From positions 1 to 64,000 of the forward strand of contig NZ_CAKMHQ010000029.1 of the NCBI RefSeq assembly GCF_927312905.1: a DNA stretch of 64,000 bases. The letters are read 5' to 3'. A model generated the notes under the pieces. That model made no database searches, was not told the origin of the DNA, and was given only the letters and a program-made list of their open reading frames with translations. The stretch is from Candidatus Nitrotoga sp. 1052 (GTDB taxonomy: Bacteria > Pseudomonadota > Gammaproteobacteria > Burkholderiales > Gallionellaceae). This document shows positions 49,516 through 60,194 of the stretch, in pieces. Position 1 is the stretch's first letter, and each line of letters begins with the position of its first letter. The translations under genes were made by a program, and so were the position numbers.

Positions 49516-50717
49516 TGACGTGCCTCCCTGTTGCGGCCGCGTAATTCCTCGCGCGCGCGCGGCATTACTGCCGCAGCTTCATTCATCGGTGCGGACGGAA
49601 CCGCTTGTTGTTCAATATGACCCGCTGCTTGTGTCTCGGGCAAAGGTAGGCCGCTCTGCGCAGTGCTTTGAATCAACTTGTCCAACGGCAGGTACAGCAG
49701 GTTGTTACCACTCTTCTGGTCCACCATCACCTTGCTTGTGCTGGTCAAAACCTGTTGCATCATGTCGATATACATGCGTTCACGAGTTACAACAGGTGCC
49801 TTCTCATATTCCACCAGCACTTGCTGGAAGCGGCTGGCATCACCTTCGGCACTGGCGATCACGCGCTGGCGATAACCTTCTGCCTCCTGCATCAGGCGCG
49901 CCGCAGCACCCTTCGCCCTGGGTATTACATCATTTGCGTAAGCCTGGCCTTCGTTCTTTTGGCGCTCCCTGTCCTGGCCCGCCTTAACCGCATCGTCGAA
50001 TGCGGCCTGCACCTGTTCAGGCGGTTGCGCATTTTGCATGGTGACTTTGCTCAATAGGATCCCGGATTTATAGCGGTCCAAAATATCTTGGGCGAGTTTG
50101 GTTGTAGCCGCAGCCACCTGTTCGCGTCCTTCGTACAGCACGAAGTCCATCTTGTTCTTGCCAACGATTTCACGTATTGAGGTTTCTGCCGCTTGACGTA
50201 CATTCTCATCTGGTGCGCGGTTGTTAAACAAATACTCGCCTGGGTCTTTCAAGAAATACTGAACGGCGAATTGAATATCGATGATGTTTTCATCATCGGT
50301 TAACATTAGCGACTCTTTTAAAATCTTGTTTTTGACGTTTTCACGGTAACCGATTTCCACCGTTCTAACTTGACTGATATTCACGACTTCGACGGACTCA
50401 ATAGGGAATGGCATATGCCAGCGCGGGCCGGGCATAGTGGTCTCGACAAAACTGCCGAAACGTAGCACCACGCCTCGCTGGCTAGCGTCCACGATGTAAA
50501 ATCCGCTGGCGATCCAGATCAGTACGACTACCACAGCAATCAGGCCAATGCTGGCATTGAATTTATTAGAACTGCCGCCACCGCCAGTGTCTCCGGTACC
50601 ACTGCCTTTGTTGCCGAACAGTGCGGAGATTTTTTTATTGATGTCGCGCAACACAGCTTCTATGTCTGGTGGACCGCCGCTGTTTTTTTTGCCCCATTGA
50701 GGGTCATTCAATCCCAT
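49512..50717 (-). CDS. hflK: HflK, FtsH protease modulator
   Basis: A 401-residue SPFH protein, partner of HflC. A glycine-rich cytoplasmic start (MGLNDPQWGKKNSGGPPDIE) precedes the membrane anchor at about residues 58-75 (IGLIAVVVVLIWIASGFYIV). The band-7 domain follows (GSFVETTMPGPRWHMPFPIE, MLTDDENIIDIQFAVQYFLK), then a helical region. Cotranscribed with hflX (20 bp gap) and hflC. Confidence 0.96.
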   Translation of the reverse strand: MGLNDPQWGKKNSGGPPDIEAVLRDINKKISALFGNKGSGTGDTGGGGSSNKFNASIGLIAVVVVLIWIASGFYIVDASQRGVVLRFGSFVETTMPGPRWHMPFPIESVEVVNISQVRTVEIGYRENVKNKILKESLMLTDDENIIDIQFAVQYFLKDPGEYLFNNRAPDENVRQAAETSIREIVGKNKMDFVLYEGREQVAAATTKLAQDILDRYKSGILLSKVTMQNAQPPEQVQAAFDDAVKAGQDRERQKNEGQAYANDVIPRAKGAAARLMQEAEGYRQRVIASAEGDASRFQQVLVEYEKAPVVTRERMYIDMMQQVLTSTSKVMVDQKSGNNLLYLPLDKLIQSTAQSGLPLPETQAAGHIEQQAVPSAPMNEAAAVMPRAREELRGRNREARQ

Positions 50718-50737
50718 AACTCATCCTATTTAATCAA

Positions 50738-51856
50738 TTATTTAGTTTCAGGGATATCCCATTGTGTCCGTGTATTACATACTTCCGCCAGCGCCGCACG
50801 CAATTCATCTATCCCCGCGCCAGTTTTAGCGCTCAAATAAATGCGCGCAATTCTAGCATAATCGTCACGTTGCACGCCTGCGGGTAAATCCTGCAAATCA
50901 ATCTTATTGAATATCAAAATTTGCGGGATATGCTGTGCGCCAATTTCCAGCAATACTTTATTAACTTCAGCTATCTGGTCAAACCGTTCCGAGCTGTTGG
51001 CATCCACTACATGCAGCAACAAATCTGCCTGCGCCGTTTCTTCTAATGTGCTGCGAAAGGCCGCAATTAAACTATGCGGCAGATGACGAATGAAGCCTAC
51101 CGTATCCGACAATACCACCTGACCCGATCCCTCGATATATACGCGCCGAGCAGTTGTGTCGAGCGTGGCAAACAACTGATCTGCAACATATGCATTCGCG
51201 TGGGTCAATTTATTAAATAAAGTAGACTTGCCCGCGTTAGTGTAGCCAACGATAGACACCGATAACACATCTGAGCGGGTGCGTGACCGGCGTAGCACTT
51301 GGCGATGGCGATGCAGCTTATCTAGGCGTTCCTTCAATAAAACTACACGTTTATCCAGTTTGCGTCTATCCAGCTCCAACTGAGTTTCGCCTGGTCCGCG
51401 AGCACCGACAGCATATTTTTGCTGGCCCATGTCGGTATTCATTCCGACCAAACGTGTGGAAAGATATTTAAGCTGTGCCAGTTCCACCTGTACCTTACCT
51501 TCATGGCTTTGAGCGCGCAGGGCGAAGATATCCAGGATCAGCATGGTGCGGTCAATGACACGTGCCTTAATTCTAGCGGTAAGATTGCGCATTTGCGCAG
51601 GGGACAGGTCGTGGTTAAAAATAACCAGCGGAACGTCGTTCTGCTCCACGATGGCGGCTATTTCATCCACCTTACCGCTACCCGCAAATAACGACGCATC
51701 AGGACGATGCCGCCGTCCTTCCACTAATGCGACGCAACGCACACCCGCACTTTCTGCCAGCAGGCGCAATTCTTCCAGGCTTTCTGCATAATCTGGCGCA
51801 CCAAAATCCAAGCTGACTAATACTGCCGTGTTAACTACCGCAGTGCTTTTGTGCAT
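50738..51856 (-). CDS. hflX: GTPase HflX
   Basis: A 372-residue OBG-family GTPase that splits stalled 70S ribosomes. The N-terminal domain contains GSGKVDEIAAIVEQ and FNHDLSPAQMRNL. The linker carries QKYAVGARGPGETQLELDRR. G1 is VGYTNAGKSTLFNKLTHA, G3 DTVGFIRHLPH and G4 NKIDL. The C-terminal tail is short. Its start shares bases with the hfq stop (TAATG). Confidence 0.96.
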   Translation of the reverse strand: MHKSTAVVNTAVLVSLDFGAPDYAESLEELRLLAESAGVRCVALVEGRRHRPDASLFAGSGKVDEIAAIVEQNDVPLVIFNHDLSPAQMRNLTARIKARVIDRTMLILDIFALRAQSHEGKVQVELAQLKYLSTRLVGMNTDMGQQKYAVGARGPGETQLELDRRKLDKRVVLLKERLDKLHRHRQVLRRSRTRSDVLSVSIVGYTNAGKSTLFNKLTHANAYVADQLFATLDTTARRVYIEGSGQVVLSDTVGFIRHLPHSLIAAFRSTLEETAQADLLLHVVDANSSERFDQIAEVNKVLLEIGAQHIPQILIFNKIDLQDLPAGVQRDDYARIARIYLSAKTGAGIDELRAALAEVCNTRTQWDIPETK

Positions 51857-52086
51857 TACTCAGCGTCTAATGGAATGGTTATGGCGCGTACGGGAACAAT
51901 GGTGGAAATGGCGTGCTTGTAAACCATTTGCGTGATTGTGTTCTTCAGCAGTACTACATACTGGTCGAATGATTCGACATGACCTTGCAACTTGATGCCA
52001 TTTACCAGATAAATGGCGACCTGCACATGCTCCTTGCGTAGTGCATTCAGGAACGGGTCTTGTAATTGTTGCCCTTTTGTACTCAT
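51856..52086 (-). CDS. hfq: RNA chaperone Hfq
   Basis: A 76-residue Sm-like protein that pairs small RNAs with mRNAs. Sm1 is [20 protein letters not shown], Sm2 is [10 protein letters not shown], and the N-terminal [20 protein letters not shown] holds the poly-U binding Gln and Phe. A short C-terminal tail ([11 protein letters not shown]) is typical of betaproteobacteria. First gene of the hfq-hflX-hflK-hflC run. The 212 bp up to the PII gene hold its promoter, which I could not pinpoint. Confidence 0.97.
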
Positions 52087-52298
52087 TGGTTTTGCTCTTA
52101 TTGGTTATGGCGGGCAACTACTTTACTGGATTTCTCGACTATTCGGAAGAGTGCATGGCTTGTATTTGCTTGTAAATTTCAAAAGATCCAAAATTATCTA
52201 ACACGTTACCGCATTCAGATCAGAGGTTTCCACCCTTCATCGAGAATTCGTCCGATTTGAGATTTTTAATGTGTTCGCGAAGACAGCAAATAATAATC

Positions 52299-54282
<1,984 letters not shown>

Positions 54283-54292
54283 ATTGAGTTCA

Positions 54293-54486
54293 GAGTTCAA
54301 GTAGGTAATGGATGGGTATCATACCAACGTTTGTTAAAGGCAATAGCGTGGGCAAGCATTCATTGTCTTGAATAAAACTGTACTTCCTGTTTCAATCTGC
54401 CTGTAAATTTAAAATGATTACGGACAAGTATGATTCATGTACCAGAAAGAATCGGCATAATCGGCGGCAGCGGGATTTATGACATT
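54293..54486. repeat. 194 bp direct repeat, left copy
   Basis: Matches 55975-56168 with about 13 mismatches by eye. It spans the whole nadE-mtnP intergenic region and the first 19 codons of mtnP. The left copy is attached to nadE and the right copy to the intact mtnP. The 1.5 kb between them is the insert. This is the pattern left by integration through homologous recombination (or tandem duplication around an insert), followed by some drift. Confidence 0.9.
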
Positions 54487-54507
54487 AATAAAGGGGTCAA
54501 GCCTTGA
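54430..54507 (+). pseudogene. Truncated mtnP 5' fragment
   Basis: ATG 54430 starts MIHVPERIGIIGGSGIYDI, the same as intact MtnP apart from conservative changes. It then runs into the inserted hairpin element (NKGVKP) and stops. Only 19 of about 295 codons remain. It is in the left copy of the 194 bp repeat and shows that mtnP once adjoined nadE directly. Confidence 0.9.
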
Positions 54508-54550
54508 CATCACGCATCCGGCCTAACGTTGTGTCAAGACTTGACCTCTT
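54491..54550. repeat. 60 bp hairpin element, left copy
   Basis: Arms AAGGGGTCAAGCCTTGACA and TGTCAAGACTTGACCTCTT pair with two mismatches around a 22-base loop containing CGGCCTAACGTTG. The same element, inverted and about 88 percent identical, lies at 55817-55876, so the two copies bracket the inserted genes. It begins four bases after the left 194 bp repeat. The next 87 bp up to the lipoprotein gene hold only short repeats and a GTTAGCC resembling an attC core. Confidence 0.8.
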
Positions 54551-54637
54551 GATTTCTACACCTCGAAGGTGCTTTTATCGGCATTTTTTAGGGTGTCTAT
54601 TTTACGTTAGCCGCCCTTAGATCGAAGCGATCAATCC

Positions 54638-55453
54638 ATGCGTTATTTGAAGATCATCGTTATTCTATTATCGGTAAGCCTCATCGGTGGATGCAGCAAT
54701 CTGAAACTCTTGGCACCAGAGAGTTTTGGTTTGTCGCCGATTACCCATAACATCTATGTAGAAGATGGTGCGGATGAAGGAACGAAAGCCAAGCTTCGGG
54801 GGGCCATAGAAGAGGCTGAAAGTGCAATACGCGCTACTTATGGTGACGTGAAGTCGCGGCCCAGTGTTTATGCTTGTATCAGTGAAGATTGCTACAAGTC
54901 ATTCGGAGGAATGGGGTCGCGAGCAAAGGTTTACGGAGACCGCATTCTGCTTTCACCGCGTGGCCTGAACTGGCATTTTCTCGCTCACGAGTGGTCTCAC
55001 GCAGAAATGAGCACCCGTCTTACCTTCACCGCGTGGTGGCGTATGCCACAATGGTTTGATGAAGGCGTGGCAGTTGCAATCAGCGAGGCACCAGAGCACT
55101 CTGAAAGTCACTGGCAATTCCTGGTGGTGGCCAATATTCCTCGCCCAACGCGCGAAGAATTGCATACCTTCAAGTCATTGAGGCAATGGCTTGACGCAGT
55201 TCACCGATATGGCGAGGACAAAAATATTGAACGCAAAGCTAAGGGTGAACCTGAAATTAGACCGGTCTATGCAACGGCGGGACATGAGCTACGGCCTTGG
55301 CTCGCGAAAGTTGGTAGCCATGGGCTTCTTGCTTTCATAGCGCGGCTGAATGGCGGAGAGGAATTTGAGTCAGCTTACCAGACGGCCAACATTGCGGTCG
55401 AGAGGGACACTCCGCAAGCGGCGTTACCGCTCGCTACGCGCCCCTCACCTTAA
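54638..55453 (+). CDS. Zinc-peptidase-like lipoprotein, gene-cassette ORF
   Basis: A 271-residue predicted lipoprotein: signal peptide with lipobox LIGGC (Cys19). A gluzincin-type motif HEWSH sits at residues 117-121 (preceded by LNWHFLA), and QWFDEGVAVAI supplies a possible third zinc ligand at Glu142. No further family could be recognised. It should act at the periplasmic face of a membrane. The last 23 or so residues (TANIAVERDTPQAALPLATR and on) are encoded within an attC-like site, a normal feature of integron cassettes. It is separated from a cupin gene by that site. Both are foreign to the surrounding housekeeping block. Confidence 0.7.
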   Translation: MRYLKIIVILLSVSLIGGCSNLKLLAPESFGLSPITHNIYVEDGADEGTKAKLRGAIEEAESAIRATYGDVKSRPSVYACISEDCYKSFGGMGSRAKVYGDRILLSPRGLNWHFLAHEWSHAEMSTRLTFTAWWRMPQWFDEGVAVAISEAPEHSESHWQFLVVANIPRPTREELHTFKSLRQWLDAVHRYGEDKNIERKAKGEPEIRPVYATAGHELRPWLAKVGSHGLLAFIARLNGGEEFESAYQTANIAVERDTPQAALPLATRPSP

Positions 55454-55461
55454 CGTTGGGC
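55384..55461. other. Integron attC-like recombination site 1
   Basis: Ends in GTTGGGC (R', consensus GTTRRRY) at 55455-55461, with a matching GGCCAAC (R'', one base off GCCCAAC) at 55384-55390. Between them the arms GGTCGAGAGGGAC and GCGCCCCTCACC pair with one unpaired base, around an inner hairpin AGCGG/CCGCT. Size (78 bp), bulged stem and core boxes all fit attC sites of gene cassettes. It overlaps the end of the lipoprotein gene, and the next gene starts 17 bases later. Confidence 0.72.
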
Positions 55462-55477
55462 CTCAAAGGAGTGAGCA

Positions 55478-55792
55478 GTGGAAACATTCAGAGTAGTGTT
55501 TGATTCCCTAGAGTGGCAAGAGGCAATGCCGGGTGCTCGCTTCAAAATATTTAGTGACGGAAAGAAGCAGATGCGATTGCTCGAATTCACTTCCGAATTC
55601 GTTGAGCCGAACTGGTGCGAAAAAGGGCACGTTGGTTTTGTTCTTAATGGCGAATTGGAAATTGATTTCGATGGAAAAATTATTAATTACATCCAAGGTT
55701 CTGGTATCTTCATTCCAACGGGCACTCTCACAAAACATAAAGCTCGCTCTATTACACCAAGTGTCCAGCTATTTTTAGTTGAAGATGTATAA
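55478..55792 (+). CDS. Cupin-fold small protein, gene-cassette ORF
   Basis: A 104-residue single cupin domain: MRLLEFTSEFVEPNWCEKGH then VGFVLNGELEIDFDGKIINY (cupin box 1 region) and GSGIFIPTGTLTKHKA (box 2 with a metal-ligand His). No signal peptide, so cytoplasmic. GTG start at 55478 with AAAGGA seven bases upstream. It begins just after attC-like site 1 and ends 10 bases before a second such site, the layout of a one-gene integron cassette. Substrate unknown. Confidence 0.72.
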   Translation: METFRVVFDSLEWQEAMPGARFKIFSDGKKQMRLLEFTSEFVEPNWCEKGHVGFVLNGELEIDFDGKIINYIQGSGIFIPTGTLTKHKARSITPSVQLFLVEDV

Positions 55793-55802
55793 GTTATTTG
55801 AA

Positions 55803-55891
55803 GCCCAACGAGCATCAAGGGGGCCAGTCTTGACACAACGTTAGGCCGAATGCGTGATGTCAAGACTGGCCCCCTTGATTTCATGTTGGGC
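55803..55891. other. Integron attC-like site 2 with an embedded hairpin
   Basis: GCCCAAC (55803-55809) and GTTGGGC (55885-55891) are perfect R''/R' core boxes, extended to a 10 bp match GAAGCCCAAC/GTTGGGCTTC. Inside, 22 bp arms at 55814-55835 and 55858-55879 pair perfectly; these contain the 60 bp hairpin element. So either the element sits inside an attC or it is itself an unusually long-stemmed attC. From 55892 to 55974 there is only unassigned sequence. Confidence 0.65.
55817..55876. repeat. 60 bp hairpin element, right copy (inverted)
   Basis: Inverted counterpart of 54491-54550 with about seven differences. The arms AAGGGGGCCAGTCTTGACA and TGTCAAGACTGGCCCCCTT pair perfectly. Compensating changes between the two copies keep both hairpins intact, suggesting the folded form matters. 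Confidence 0.8.
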
Positions 55892-55974
55892 TTCGCAAGC
55901 TCAGCGCCAACCTACCGGGTGAAAAATGCTTGACTTTAAAGACGGTATCTACGTTAGCCCAGGCTACGCTTCCC

Positions 55975-56168
55975 GAGTTCAAGTCGGTAATGGATAAGTA
56001 TCATACCAACGTTTGTTAAAGGCAATAGCGTGGGTAAGCATTCATTGTCTTGAATAAAACTGTACTTCCTGTTTCAATCTGCTTGTAAATTTAAAATGAT
56101 TACGGATAACCATGATCCATGTTCCAGACAGAATCGGCATAATCGGCGGCAGCGGGGTTTACGACATT
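55975..56168. repeat. 194 bp direct repeat, right copy
   Basis: Partner of 54293-54486. It begins abruptly at GAGTTCAAG, which in the left copy is the end of nadE's leader, and ends at codon 19 of intact mtnP. It supplies mtnP with its native upstream region, so expression of mtnP need not have been lost. Confidence 0.9.
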
Positions 56169-56999
56169 GCCGGGTTGACCAACAAGCGCTGGGAAAAGGT
56201 CGCTTCGCCGTTTGGAGAGCCATCCAGCGAGTTATTATTCGGTGAACTGGACGGCCACAATATTGTGTTTTTGCCCCGTCATGGTCGCGGACACAAAATT
56301 CCTCCGACCGAAATTAATTTTCACGCCAATATCGACGCGCTGAAGCGGGTAGGGGTGACCGATGTCATTTCAGTTAGTGCCGTTGGTTCCTTGCGCGAGG
56401 ACTTGCCGCCGGGCACGTTCGTGATTGTTGATCAGTTTATCGACCGTACTTTTGCGCGCAATAAGTCTTTTTTTGGCGCGGGATTGGTGGCGCATGTCTC
56501 TATGGCTTACCCTGTTTGCAAAAGGCTAGGCGATCATATTGAGATGGCCGCGAGAGAGGCAAATATCCCTATCGTTCGTGGCGGTACATATCTGGTTATG
56601 GAAGGGCCGCAGTTTTCCAGTCTGGCTGAATCGAATCTCTATCGTGCCTGGGGGTGCGATGTAATTGGCATGACCAACATGCCAGAGGCCAAGCTCGCTC
56701 GTGAGGCAGAGTTGTGTTATGCCACCGTGGCGATGGTGACGGACTATGATTGTTGGCATCCCGACCATGAACATGTCACGGTAGGGCAGATCATCAAGAT
56801 GCTCACCGCAAATGCGGATAAGGCGAAAACGCTGGTAACGCACGTCATTCCGAAAGTGCGCACTGATGCTCTGGCCGATGCCTGTAGCTGTCGCTCGACA
56901 TTGGAATTCGCGCTCATTACTGCGCCAGAAGCGCGTGATGCAGCCATGATTGAAAAGCTGGATGCGATTGCGGGCAGGGTGTTGAAGGGTAAGTCATGA
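56112..56999 (+). CDS. mtnP: S-methyl-5'-thioadenosine phosphorylase
   Basis: Cleaves methylthioadenosine to adenine and 5-methylthioribose 1-phosphate. 295 residues of the type II purine-nucleoside-phosphorylase fold: IGIIGGSGVYDIAGL, FLPRHGRGHKIPPTEINFHA (phosphate/ribose site), YLVMEGPQFSSLAESNLYRA and GMTNMPEAKLAREAELCYAT with MVTDYDCWH, the adenine-preferring pattern. A methylthioinosine preference is less likely. The stop overlaps the aldolase gene by four bases. First gene of a salvage operon with apt and mtnA. Confidence 0.92.
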   Translation: MIHVPDRIGIIGGSGVYDIAGLTNKRWEKVASPFGEPSSELLFGELDGHNIVFLPRHGRGHKIPPTEINFHANIDALKRVGVTDVISVSAVGSLREDLPPGTFVIVDQFIDRTFARNKSFFGAGLVAHVSMAYPVCKRLGDHIEMAAREANIPIVRGGTYLVMEGPQFSSLAESNLYRAWGCDVIGMTNMPEAKLAREAELCYATVAMVTDYDCWHPDHEHVTVGQIIKMLTANADKAKTLVTHVIPKVRTDALADACSCRSTLEFALITAPEARDAAMIEKLDAIAGRVLKGKS

Positions 57000-57643
57000 T
57001 GCCATCTGGTGAAGATAGCCTGCGCCTACAGTTACTGGATGTGTCCCAGCGTTTGCTCGATCAGGGTTTGAACCGCGGTACTTCCGGCAATGCTGCCGTG
57101 CGTTGCGGTGATGGCATGTTGATTACACCGTCTGCGATGGCGGTGGCGGATATGATGCCCGCAGACATGGTACGCATGGATTTGAATGGCAATGCCCTGT
57201 GCGGTGGCAAACCCACCAGCGAGTGGCGCTTCCATCGTGACATTCTAGCCAACCGTCCCGACGTGAACGCTGTCATTCACACTCATTCAGCGTTTGCCAC
57301 CACGTTGGCCTGTTTGCGCAAGGATGTTCCAGCCGTGCATTACATGATTGCGGCGGCGGGAGGCAATATGATCCGTTGCGCACCCTATGCATTGTTTGGC
57401 GAACAGACGCTTTCAGACTATGCATTGTCCGCGCTGGAGGGCCGAAAAGCTTGCCTGCTGGCTAACCACGGCATGATTGCGTTGGGTTCGGATTTAGCCG
57501 ATGCATTGATGGTAGCCATTGAGGTCGAGTTTTTGTGCGAGTTGTACTGGCGCGCTTTGCAGGCAGGTGAACCGCATATTCTTACGCCGCAACAAATGCA
57601 CGACGTGCAAGAAAAATTCGTAGATTACAAAAAACGCACCTAA
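56996..57643 (+). CDS. Class II aldolase/adducin family protein (methylthioribulose-phosphate processing)
   Basis: A 215-residue FucA-like class II aldolase. Zinc ligands His95 and His97 (AVIHTHSAF) and His158 (LLANHGMIA), with catalytic Glu76 (TSEWRFHRDI) and the phosphate loop GTSGNAAVR. Lying between mtnP and apt-mtnA, it most likely acts on 5-methylthioribulose 1-phosphate. Two outcomes are possible: aldol cleavage to dihydroxyacetone phosphate and methylthioacetaldehyde (the DHAP shunt Ald2), or dehydration as MtnB. No mtnC, mtnD or mtnE neighbours it, which favours the aldolase route; that is inference. Confidence 0.8.
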   Translation: MMPSGEDSLRLQLLDVSQRLLDQGLNRGTSGNAAVRCGDGMLITPSAMAVADMMPADMVRMDLNGNALCGGKPTSEWRFHRDILANRPDVNAVIHTHSAFATTLACLRKDVPAVHYMIAAAGGNMIRCAPYALFGEQTLSDYALSALEGRKACLLANHGMIALGSDLADALMVAIEVEFLCELYWRALQAGEPHILTPQQMHDVQEKFVDYKKRT

Positions 57644-57658
57644 CAAACCTGAAGATAT

Positions 57659-58186
57659 ATGACTATCAAATCTCTTATTCGCACCATTACGCACTACCCC
57701 AAGCCGAATATCATGTTCCGCGATATCAGTTCCCTCCTTAAGGATCCGATAGGCTTCAGGATCACCATAAACGAGTTGGTACGTCGCTATGCCGATATGG
57801 AAATCGACAAGGTGATAGGTATCGAAGCGCGTGGTTTTATAGTAGGAGCGCCGCTGGCTTATGCCTTGGGTAAAGGTTTCGTGCCGATTCGTAAAAAAGG
57901 CAAGTTGCCTGCAGAAACTATAGGGCACGACTATGAACTGGAATATGGTACTGACCGTATCGAAATTCATGCCGATGCGATTACTCCGGGTGAAAGGATA
58001 TTGCTTGTGGATGATCTAATTGCTACCGGCGGTACGGCGGAGGCGGCAACCAGACTGATCGAGAAGATTGGCGGCAAAATTGTTGAATGCTGTTTTGTCA
58101 TCGATCTACCGGATATCGGCGGACGTAAGCGCTTGGAGAAAAAAGGCTACAGTGTGTTTGCGCTGTGCGAATTTGAGGGTGACTGA
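57659..58186 (+). CDS. apt: Adenine phosphoribosyltransferase
   Basis: Returns adenine, released by MtnP, to AMP using PRPP. 175 residues with [20 protein letters not shown] (family N-terminus), [20 protein letters not shown], the PRPP loop [18 protein letters not shown] and [13 protein letters not shown]. It follows the aldolase gene by 15 bp. Its place in the operon is functionally sensible. Confidence 0.96.
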
Positions 58187-58214
58187 ACGCCTGATCAATC
58201 GTTTTTGAGGCGTC

Positions 58215-59255
58215 ATGATGAAAGTTGAAACTCTGCGTTGGTCGGATGGTGTGCTGGAAATGATAGACCAGCGCATTTTGCCTGCAACGTTTATGTACTT
58301 GCAATATGATTCTGCCGCTGCTGTGGCCGAAGGCATCCGCAGCATGGTCGTGCGTGGCGCTCCAGCCATCGGCGTGGCGGCAGCCTACGGCGTGGCGCTG
58401 GAGGCACATCGTTTGCTCGCTGTTACTGATGAATCTTTCCAGCGCGGCATGAATCAAGGCTTTGATACACTTGCTCAAAGCAGGCCGACTGCGGTCAACT
58501 TGTTTTGGGCGTTAGCGCGCATGAAGCAGGTATGGCAAACCGTAGCGAGTAAATCCAACATGCAAGTAGCGATGCGCCTGCTGGCCGAAGCGCATGAGAT
58601 TTTTGCCGAAGATATTCGCATCAATCGTACACTGGGGTCGTACGGTGCCGAGTTGTTGCGGGATGGCGCACGCGTATTGACGCATTGCAATGCCGGAGCG
58701 CTGGCTACAGCTGGCCATGGCACTGCGCTGGGTGTCATTCGGTCTGCCGTGGAAGCAGGTAAAAAAATTTCCGTTATTGCGGACGAAACGCGTCCCTTCC
58801 TGCAAGGTGCGCGCCTGACCGCATGGGAGATGGTGCAGGAGAAAATTCCGGTGACCCTCATCACTGATAATATGGCCGGTTTCATGATGAGTCGCGGAGA
58901 AGTGGATGCCGTAGTGGTCGGCACGGATCGTGTAGCCGCCAATGGCGATGTTGCTAACAAGATTGGCACCTACATGGTCGCTGTGCTGGCACAACGCCAC
59001 CATATTCCATTCTATGTGGCCTGTCCGCTTTCCACGATAGACATGTCTATCACAAGCGGTGTGGATATTCCCATCGAAGAACGTCATGCAGACGAGGTAA
59101 AAGGCTTTCGAGATTTCCACTGGGCTGCGCAGGGCGTGCAGATACGCAATCCTTCGTTTGATATTACACCTGCTGAATTGGTTACAGCGCTGATTACCGA
59201 AAAGGGAGTGATTCACCAACCTGATGTTGGGAAACTGCGTGCGCTATTCAGTTGA
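58215..59255 (+). CDS. mtnA: 5-methylthioribose-1-phosphate isomerase
   Basis: Converts 5-methylthioribose 1-phosphate to 5-methylthioribulose 1-phosphate. 346 residues: SMVVRGAPAIGVAAAYGVAL, SRPTAVNLFWALARM, the catalytic Cys in VLTHCNAGALAT and the catalytic Asp in VVVGTDRVAANGDVANKIGT. Two adjacent ATGs (58215, 58218) are possible starts. Fourth and last gene of the operon. Confidence 0.96.
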   Translation: MMKVETLRWSDGVLEMIDQRILPATFMYLQYDSAAAVAEGIRSMVVRGAPAIGVAAAYGVALEAHRLLAVTDESFQRGMNQGFDTLAQSRPTAVNLFWALARMKQVWQTVASKSNMQVAMRLLAEAHEIFAEDIRINRTLGSYGAELLRDGARVLTHCNAGALATAGHGTALGVIRSAVEAGKKISVIADETRPFLQGARLTAWEMVQEKIPVTLITDNMAGFMMSRGEVDAVVVGTDRVAANGDVANKIGTYMVAVLAQRHHIPFYVACPLSTIDMSITSGVDIPIEERHADEVKGFRDFHWAAQGVQIRNPSFDITPAELVTALITEKGVIHQPDVGKLRALFS

Positions 59256-59414
59256 TGGATATCCCCAGTTTTTTCAGTAAACTTGTGCTACGCAATTTGC
59301 GTTAACCACGTTGTTCTTGTTAGCCTGTATTTATATTGCTTATTCTGAAAAAACTTGTTTTTTGTTTCAAAGTTGAACATTTTATTTGCTTGTTGCAGGC
59401 ATTTAAATTAGCTC

Positions 59415-59442
59415 TTGACAATTAATACCCGGGCACTATATT
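59415..59442 (+). promoter_or_regulatory. Sigma-70-type promoter for the Sel1-repeat gene
   Basis: TTGACA (59415-59420) and TATATT (59437-59442) with a 16 bp spacer, about 80 bp upstream of the next start codon. The -35 box is a perfect match and the -10 differs from TATAAT at one base, making it one of the best promoters visible in the window. Confidence 0.7.
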
Positions 59443-59522
59443 AAAGAAACTTAGTCAGAACAGTTTGGGGAAGTGATGCATGCGGCAGCATTTTTTATGC
59501 CGTAATTAACGATGGGGCCAAA

Positions 59523-60194
59523 ATGAAAATAATTGTACAGTTTGTGATCTTGCTTTTAACATTAAATGGCTATGTTTTAGCAGAAGAAGTGTCAACCGCA
59601 ACAAATAGTTTGGAGCAAGTGCAAAAGCAAGCAGAGGCCGGCGATGCCAGCGCCCAGACCCGTCTTGGATGGATATATGCCAATGGCATAGGTGTACCTG
59701 TAGATGCCGACAAAGCCGTGGAGTGGTATCAAAAAGCAGCAGCTCAAGGGTATCCAAAGGCCCAGTTTGAACTCGGGGCAATGTATGGCAGTGGTGAAGC
59801 TGTGACTAGCGTAGCTAAAGATCCCACCAAGGCCGCAGAGTGGTATCAAAAAGCAGCAGCTCAAGGGTATCCAAAGGCCCAGTTTGAATTCGGGTCGATA
59901 CACCTCACAGGCGAAGGCGTCACTAAAGATGCTACCAAGGCCGTGGAATGGTATAAAAAAGCGGCAGCTCAAGGGCTTGCTCAAGCACAGACCAGCCTCG
60001 GATGGATGTATCAAAACGGTAGGGGTGTGGCAAAGGATGGTGTGTTGGCTTATGCATGGCACAATCTGGCTGCTGCACAGGGCAATGAAAATGCGAAAAA
60101 ATTGCGTGACTTAACTAACTTGAATTCTGTCCAGCGTGCTGAAGCAGAACGACTATCTGCAAACTGGAAGCCGGGGCAGATATTGAGTCGGTAA
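59523..60194 (+). CDS. Secreted Sel1-repeat protein (first of two)
   Basis: A 223-residue protein with a signal peptide (IIVQFVILLLTLNGYVLA) and four Sel1 (TPR-like) repeats, e.g. AQTRLGWIYANGIGVPVDAD and KAVEWYQKAAAQGYPKAQFE. Two of them are nearly identical at DNA level for about 50 bp (near 59720 and 59840), so repeat number may change by slippage or recombination. Sel1 proteins act as protein-protein scaffolds, often in envelope stress or secretion. The partner is unknown. Confidence 0.85.
   Translation: MKIIVQFVILLLTLNGYVLAEEVSTATNSLEQVQKQAEAGDASAQTRLGWIYANGIGVPVDADKAVEWYQKAAAQGYPKAQFELGAMYGSGEAVTSVAKDPTKAAEWYQKAAAQGYPKAQFEFGSIHLTGEGVTKDATKAVEWYKKAAAQGLAQAQTSLGWMYQNGRGVAKDGVLAYAWHNLAAAQGNENAKKLRDLTNLNSVQRAEAERLSANWKPGQILSR

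Follow-up and report, generated by a model that had tools for sequence, protein, structure and literature searches.

The window analysed here is a stretch of 64,000 nucleotides from Candidatus Nitrotoga sp. 1052 (contig NZ_CAKMHQ010000029.1, positions 1 to 64,000 of the forward strand), a nitrite-oxidising member of the family Gallionellaceae. Between nadE and mtnP it carries an insert of 1,488 bp (54487-55974) flanked by direct repeats of 194 nt, and we compared this site across 19 genomes of the genus Nitrotoga, G000 being the window's own genome. From left to right the insert consists of a 67-bp hairpin, a 57-bp integron attI site, a lipoprotein cassette with its attC site, a cupin cassette with a cut attC, a second hairpin and a short arm. 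The features of the locus, including the two open reading frames (ORFs) of the cargo, are as follows.

52678-54282, minus strand: nadE (NAD synthase), the left flank; an ORF matching Pfam NAD_synthase and CN_hydrolase
54293-54486, plus strand: left 194-bp repeat, made up of the nadE-mtnP intergenic region and the first 19 mtnP codons
54487-54553, plus strand: left hairpin, nearly palindromic, its loop 12 nt long; fold z = -5.5
54554-54610, plus strand: attI core, 57 bp, ending at the GTT crossover (G at 54606)
54638-55453, plus strand: ORF1, first cassette gene, lipoprotein-like with an HExxH motif
55384-55461, plus strand: attC of cassette 1, lying partly within the 3' end of ORF1; covariance model score 33.1 bits, with E 2.3e-4 over 403 kb; fold z = -2.85
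55478-55792, plus strand: ORF2, second cassette gene, cupin fold; cassette start GTTGGGC at 55455
55803-55813, plus strand: left end of the attC of cassette 2 (GCCCAAC...), 11 bases, followed by the right hairpin
55814-55880, minus strand: right hairpin, inverted relative to its left counterpart; fold z = -8.8
55881-55974, plus strand: right arm, opening with a short palindrome (GTTGGGCTTCGC...GCGCCAAC) and partly conserved among relatives
55975-56168, plus strand: right 194-bp repeat
56112-56999, plus strand: intact mtnP (Pfam PNP_UDP_1), continuous with the right repeat

An earlier note on this DNA had described a 1.5-kb insert with a truncated mtnP on its left and an intact one on its right, held between 194-bp direct repeats with about 13 differences. 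The coordinates were confirmed, and realignment of 54293-54486 with 55975-56168 gave 93.3% identity and 13 differences. Its description of the cargo, a zinc-peptidase-like lipoprotein and a cupin protein, also stands, with family matches that lie below their cut-offs; the hairpins bounding the insert and the integron sites formed no part of its account. The mtnP remnant in the left repeat (54430-54486) retains 19 codons before its frame reaches a stop at 54505-54507 within the left hairpin. The two hairpins, of 67 bp each, are mutually inverted with 88% identity and far stabler than shuffled sequence, as the fold z values above indicate. It is unlikely that the repeat structure is an assembly artefact, because the single-contig relatives G006 and G008 have the same architecture.

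Two of the integron parts, the attI and the first cassette, have relatives in integrons elsewhere in the same genome. The attI of the window is 96% identical to positions 401-457 of contig C67, which adjoin a full-length integron integrase gene (C67:555-1496; 488 bits against a cut-off of 265). The insert itself holds no integrase gene in the ORF list, and the intI genes of this genome lie on other contigs. Names of attC boxes and the GTT crossover follow general usage for integrons. For attC detection we used a covariance model made from eight attC sites in arrays of G018, G014 and C67 of G000, none of them from the nadE-mtnP locus; it replaced regular-expression finders, which missed sites and called the palindromic hairpin. 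Beyond the attC of cassette 1, the region 55803-55891 gave a weak match (18.9 bits, E 0.37); here the right hairpin cuts off all but the first 11 bases of the cassette 2 attC. Applied to the whole of G000, where 150 of 429 first-look candidates were scored, the model found at least 27 attC sites with E no higher than 0.1. A paralogue of ORF1 with 81% identity (C15:34193-35014) sits in an array behind a decayed integrase and has the same type of attC, and the DNA of ORF1 plus its attC matches that array at 83% over 838 bp. Of the components of an integron, the insert has attI and a cassette with attC and lacks intI. Clusters of attC sites lacking integron integrases (CALINs) are defined by at least two attC sites; the insert resembles them in having no integrase nearby and differs in having one complete attC and one that is cut.

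The nadE-mtnP site turned out to be filled repeatedly within the genus. Nine of the 19 genomes (G000, G001, G006, G007, G008, G014, G015, G017 and G018) have a split repeat with an insert; three repeat copies, one of them partial, are present in G001, and the site spans two contigs in G014. The site is uninterrupted in five others, with a single copy of the repeat region in G003, G009, G012 and G013 and with nadE and mtnP adjacent, as judged by gene distance, in G002; for G004, G005, G010, G011 and G016, in which nadE was found and mtnP was absent from the fetched stretch, the site was scored neither filled nor empty. In six of the nine filled genomes (G000, G001, G006, G008, G015 and G017) the left copy breaks off at the identical base of mtnP, after (G/A)ACATT, and the hairpin follows. 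G014 and G018 have in common a different, shorter left copy, and that of G007 is degraded.

What varies is the cargo. Each of the nine filled genomes has a different set of cargo ORFs, and pairwise nucleotide BLAST among the ten cargo blocks revealed no gene common to any two. The matches that were obtained fell on the hairpins, the right arm, attI (G001 with G014) and attC (G001 and G014 with G015), together with 66 bp between G014 and G018 and 89 bp at 73% between G006 and G007, each of which adjoins a hairpin. In the second unit of G001 and in the G014 insert, the position next to the hairpin is taken by another type of attI, which aligns with that of G017:C10 over 63-65 bp at 87-88% identity, and the covariance model also placed attC sites in the inserts of G001, G006, G014 and G015 (loci L027, L023, L032 and L029, respectively).

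The edges of this variable region coincide with the hairpins. On the left side, in 28 of 28 pairs drawn from eight genomes (all filled ones except G007, the hairpins of which are degenerate), homology reaches the hairpin and ends 6-35 bp past its core, and in 25 of these pairs the end falls at 16-25 bp, which is the hairpin edge. On the right side, all 15 pairs among G000, G001, G006, G008, G014 and G017 have their homology beginning within the hairpin or, at the furthest, 3 bp beyond the edge that faces the cargo (G015 and G018 have no right hairpin, and G007 was again omitted as degenerate). By these comparisons the hairpins are the apparent limits of cargo exchange.

There is also a much wider set of attI sites of this kind. 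The attI core has six matches in G000, one of them beside an integrase. When a 166-bp query (G000:C51; L132 2905-3070) was used, 54 matches were found in 13 of the 19 genomes, 42 of which reach the end of the attI core. Among the matches listed, nine of the 42 lie within 1.5 kb of an integrase match (remnants included) and 33, in 12 genomes and including the copy in the window, do not, with the qualification that some integrase remnants may be missed. The other 32 stand-alone attI-like units are at L132 (G000:C51), L133, L134 and L177-L205, and the sequence of every one of the 33 was inspected. In an alignment of 30 copies, conservation is high up to the GTT and near zero a few bases later; only the fall after the GTT is informative, because the copies were selected by likeness up to that point. 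This profile omits the three of the 33 that lack a GTT-like word in the expected position; of the copies kept, two read ATT or CTT. The attC model found 17 sites at 13 of 32 such loci, all in the orientation of attI and all downstream of it, in a sample where 29 of the 32 stretches had little upstream sequence. The 154 bp upstream of the unit fall into 18 groups across the 32 loci, and the downstream cargo falls into 28. One orthologous attI site could be followed through eight genomes (G001, G003, G008, G009, G012, G013, G015 and G017). There, the upstream flank matches up to attI in 28 of 28 pairs, at 83-95% over about 0.9 kb (G013, at a contig end) to 3.6 kb, and downstream the eight genomes have seven cargo groups, the only sharing being between G009 and G013. 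Such a pattern would be expected of a fixed attI whose cassettes change.

Given these data we favor, with reasonable though incomplete confidence, the possibility that the insert is a landing site made of an attI without an integrase, the cargo of which turns over through the combined action of an integrase from elsewhere and homologous exchange. The parts that can be read directly from the sequence are attI and attC, the identity of the cassettes, the hairpins, the junctions common to most filled genomes and the varying cargo. In this working model, cassettes would enter and leave at attI by means of an integron integrase encoded elsewhere in the genome, and the slot with its contents would be exchanged among strains, with nadE, mtnP, the 194-bp repeats and the hairpins serving as sites of homologous recombination. 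A recombination event joining the two repeats would remove the slot exactly, and this would explain the presence of empty relatives among filled ones. Since an intact mtnP, with the region upstream of it, is retained at the right repeat, filling and emptying of the slot need not damage mtnP. We further consider that the first duplication probably arose once in the genus, because the left breakpoint is the same base in six of the nine filled genomes; the founding event was perhaps the integration of a circle carrying the intergenic region.

The repeats have evidently recombined between species. A tree in which left copies form a clade apart from right copies was rejected (approximately unbiased test, p-AU 7.65e-5; seven left and nine right rows, copies shorter than 150 bp, namely the left ones of G014 and G018 and the middle one of G001, being omitted). 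Nearest neighbours can cross sides, the left copy of G006 being 96.4% identical to the right copy of G008 and the left copy of G015 90.2% identical to that same right copy, whereas the left and right copies of G000 reach only 93.3%. In addition, filled and empty sites are intermixed in the nadE tree: a pair made up of filled G001 and empty G012 is separated from the other eleven (100/100), empty G003 groups with filled G014 and G018 (82/93), and filled G008 and G015 group with empty G009 (99/99). It is because left and right copies are mixed across species that the repeats are best seen as substrates of homologous recombination. Earlier expectations for the locus fared unevenly in this light. 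Homologous recombination at the repeats had been proposed and is supported, and an uninterrupted nadE-mtnP junction in relatives, which had been named as evidence that would speak for integration, is seen in the five genomes named above; integration of a circle, proposed alongside, is no more than one possible origin of the duplication. The idea of a one-off foreign insert has to be given up, since the site is filled in nine of 19 genomes with different cargo and ORF1 has its 81% paralogue in the same genome.

Several points weigh against our working model. The whole of its support is comparative, so that excision, insertion and expression are proposals made from sequence. The insert has a single complete attC. 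Integron parts are clear in five of the nine filled genomes (G000, the second unit of G001, G006, G014 and G015); in G007, G008, G018 and the first unit of G001 neither attI nor, at E up to 1, any attC was found, and the G017 cargo offers only a 50-bp attC-like stretch. With several cargoes lacking attI or attC, capture at attI is not demonstrable for all of them, and integrase capture may not be the whole story for the cargo of the slot. Among the 12 genomes that carry integrase-less attI copies, four (G003, G006, G007 and G008) have no integrase above the cut-off, and for this reason present activity of an integrase from elsewhere cannot be assumed in them. A scan of 54200-56250 for a cassette promoter (Pc) by sigma-70-like matches, the one promoter type covered, found none against a mean of 2.7 in shuffled sequence, which leaves expression driven from the left repeat unsupported. 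No hairpin-mobilising enzyme was identified in the 30 Y1-transposase loci that were fetched. Finally, the test that rejected separate clades of left and right copies was run once a first tree had been seen, most forks of this short tree are unsupported and the left row of G007 is long.

Of the alternatives, the one that survives best, and which we nevertheless consider unlikely, is the recurring integration, through a single crossover, of a circle bearing both cargo and a nadE-mtnP intergenic region derived from a different Nitrotoga. It would account for direct repeats flanking an insert with mtnP intact on one side, and the 7% divergence of the two copies resembles that between species. However, no circular form, plasmid or donor was seen, and a left breakpoint common to six species is also compatible with a single founding event, after which homologous flanks mediated exchange.

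We find it improbable that the locus is a composite transposon in which the hairpins act as ends resembling miniature inverted-repeat transposable elements (MITEs) and move the cargo together, in the manner proposed for the 439-bp MITEs with class 1 integrons. The hairpins do bound the cargo and solitary copies occur outside nadE-mtnP in G008, G014 and G018, and one study describes MITE-flanked integrons that are cut at the same points (PMC3934969). Set against this are the following observations: (i) it is the same site that is filled in all nine genomes; (ii) comparison with empty sites reveals no short target duplication, only the 194-bp repeat; (iii) a search of G000 found no further full hairpin and one half copy, at C67; (iv) the hairpin half is present in none of the 30 fetched Y1-transposase loci; and (v) the five hairpins located outside this site in the genus stand alone, with none paired around cargo in the roughly 450-500 bp inspected on each side.

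We give little credence to one old duplication inherited vertically, with cargo decaying and being replaced independently in each lineage and no ongoing exchange between strains: it would suit the left breakpoint common to six of nine filled genomes, the related right arm of most of them and the alternative left junction of G014 and G018, but left and right copies do not form two clades, certain left copies have their closest match in the right copy of a different species, the nadE tree mixes filled and empty sites (for example, G001 with G012) and the cargoes are different genes, not decayed forms of one. The reading of the insert as an island targeted to a tRNA gene was rejected when a search of 50000-60000 found no tRNA.

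Returning to the integrase-less landing site, a tentative extension is that the genus has a distributed integron, in which one or a few integrases serve dozens of small stand-alone attI outposts scattered along the chromosome, the nadE-mtnP slot being one. Each outpost would take and swap single cassettes in a different genomic neighbourhood, and that at nadE-mtnP would also have gained the hairpins and long repeats by which whole slots could cross species through homologous recombination. Integrons are usually described as one platform with a single attI adjoining the integrase. Like a complete chromosomal integron, the slot has an attI, a cassette with attC and insertion at GTT, and both its attI and a cassette paralogue occur in the integrons of the same genome; unlike one, it has no integrase, a 57-bp attI only and one complete attC, and it is surrounded by hairpins and 194-bp repeats. 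It is like a CALIN in that cassettes lie distant from an integrase, and unlike one in that the slot and the 32 other copies retain attI, in its one complete attC and in the refilling of one site across species. Origins proposed for CALINs include off-target insertion, loss of intI and rearrangement (PMC8618304). In class 1 and 2 integrons, delta-attI-type cassettes contain attI pieces displaced from their place beside intI (PMC12901181). They resemble the present case in this displacement, but there attI replaces a 3' attC inside an integron, whereas here it is 5', chromosomal and away from intI. PMC3934969 reports MITE-flanked integrons with fixed truncation points, a short repeat on both sides and varied arrays. 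The slot shares each of these characteristics; it differs in its 67-bp hairpin for which no transposase is known, its restriction to one site, its 194-bp rather than 5-bp duplication and its lack of an integrase.

Among the matches listed in searches of the open-access literature, we found no report of stand-alone chromosomal attI sites or of the nadE-mtnP slot, nor any of hairpins delimiting cargo exchange there. A chromosomal attI without integrase that holds different cassettes at an orthologous place would allow cassettes to be expressed in many contexts, and would be a direct source of some cassettes now listed as integrase-free clusters. The nadE-mtnP slot is also a clear case of hairpins marking where cargo has been exchanged among species.

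The hairpin itself has a restricted distribution. A scan of the GTDB collection with the hairpin pattern, from which records close to the window's own genome were possibly excluded, returned eight stretches, all from Candidatus Nitrotoga or one Nitrosomonadales bin. Solitary hairpins at L083 6294-6360 and L084 5318-5380 occupy the equivalent place in G014 and G018, and there is a degraded copy in G013 (L104). The co-located copies and the degraded one suggest that the hairpin has long been dispersed in Nitrotoga genomes. We take it to resemble two inverted repetitive extragenic palindromes (REPs), as in a REPIN; mobilisation by a REP-associated tyrosine transposase (RAYT) was rejected when no hairpin half appeared, with up to three substitutions allowed, in the 30 fetched Y1 loci, a subset of all Y1 matches. 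The half hairpin of C67 adjoins an attC at about L125 11448-11544 (G000:C67:59447-59543), near the end of the contig that bears the integrase. On the minus strand the loop of the hairpin (window 54516-54531) reads CAACGTTAGGC and resembles an attC at its crossover end, a likeness that is either fortuitous or a hint at where the hairpin came from.

As to the remaining features of the window, nadE starts at the ATG at 54282, the program-made ORF list using a TTG at 54300 instead, and Rfam models at gathering scores matched no known structured RNA in 53000-57500. The HExxH and lipobox motifs of ORF1 were recognised by eye. ORF1 had no match in Pfam and a weak flagellinolysin match in NCBIfam (21.6 bits against a cut-off of 205). 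A phage origin of ORF1 was set aside, no relative being confirmed among viral contigs, and so was a plasmid origin, for which a plasmid collection gave six distant matches only, all below 60% identity. ORF2 matched DHCW_cupin with 40 bits (cut-off 70) and Pfam Cupin_2 with 21.6 (cut-off 27.2), and its comparison with solved structures gave nothing below E 0.027.

Pfam names two of ten cargo proteins of relatives, in a scan that excluded the G014 ORF of 148 amino acids and the cargo of G018: a PemK/MazF-type toxin in G001 and, in G008, a T5orf172/MUG113 protein with a GIY-YIG match that falls short of the cut-off. PADLOC gave no convincing defence match for the ten cargo proteins, the best being the G008 protein at E 1.6e-4. 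The toxin gene (Pfam PemK_toxin) makes up the first cargo unit of G001, Nitrotoga sp. BS, at L027 7895-8293. The 6-kb cargo of G018 (L030), in which no attC was found, resembles a metabolic cluster by eye, and encodes what we take to be S-adenosylmethionine (AdoMet) decarboxylase, methyltransferase, SET-domain and deoxyhypusine-synthase-like proteins.

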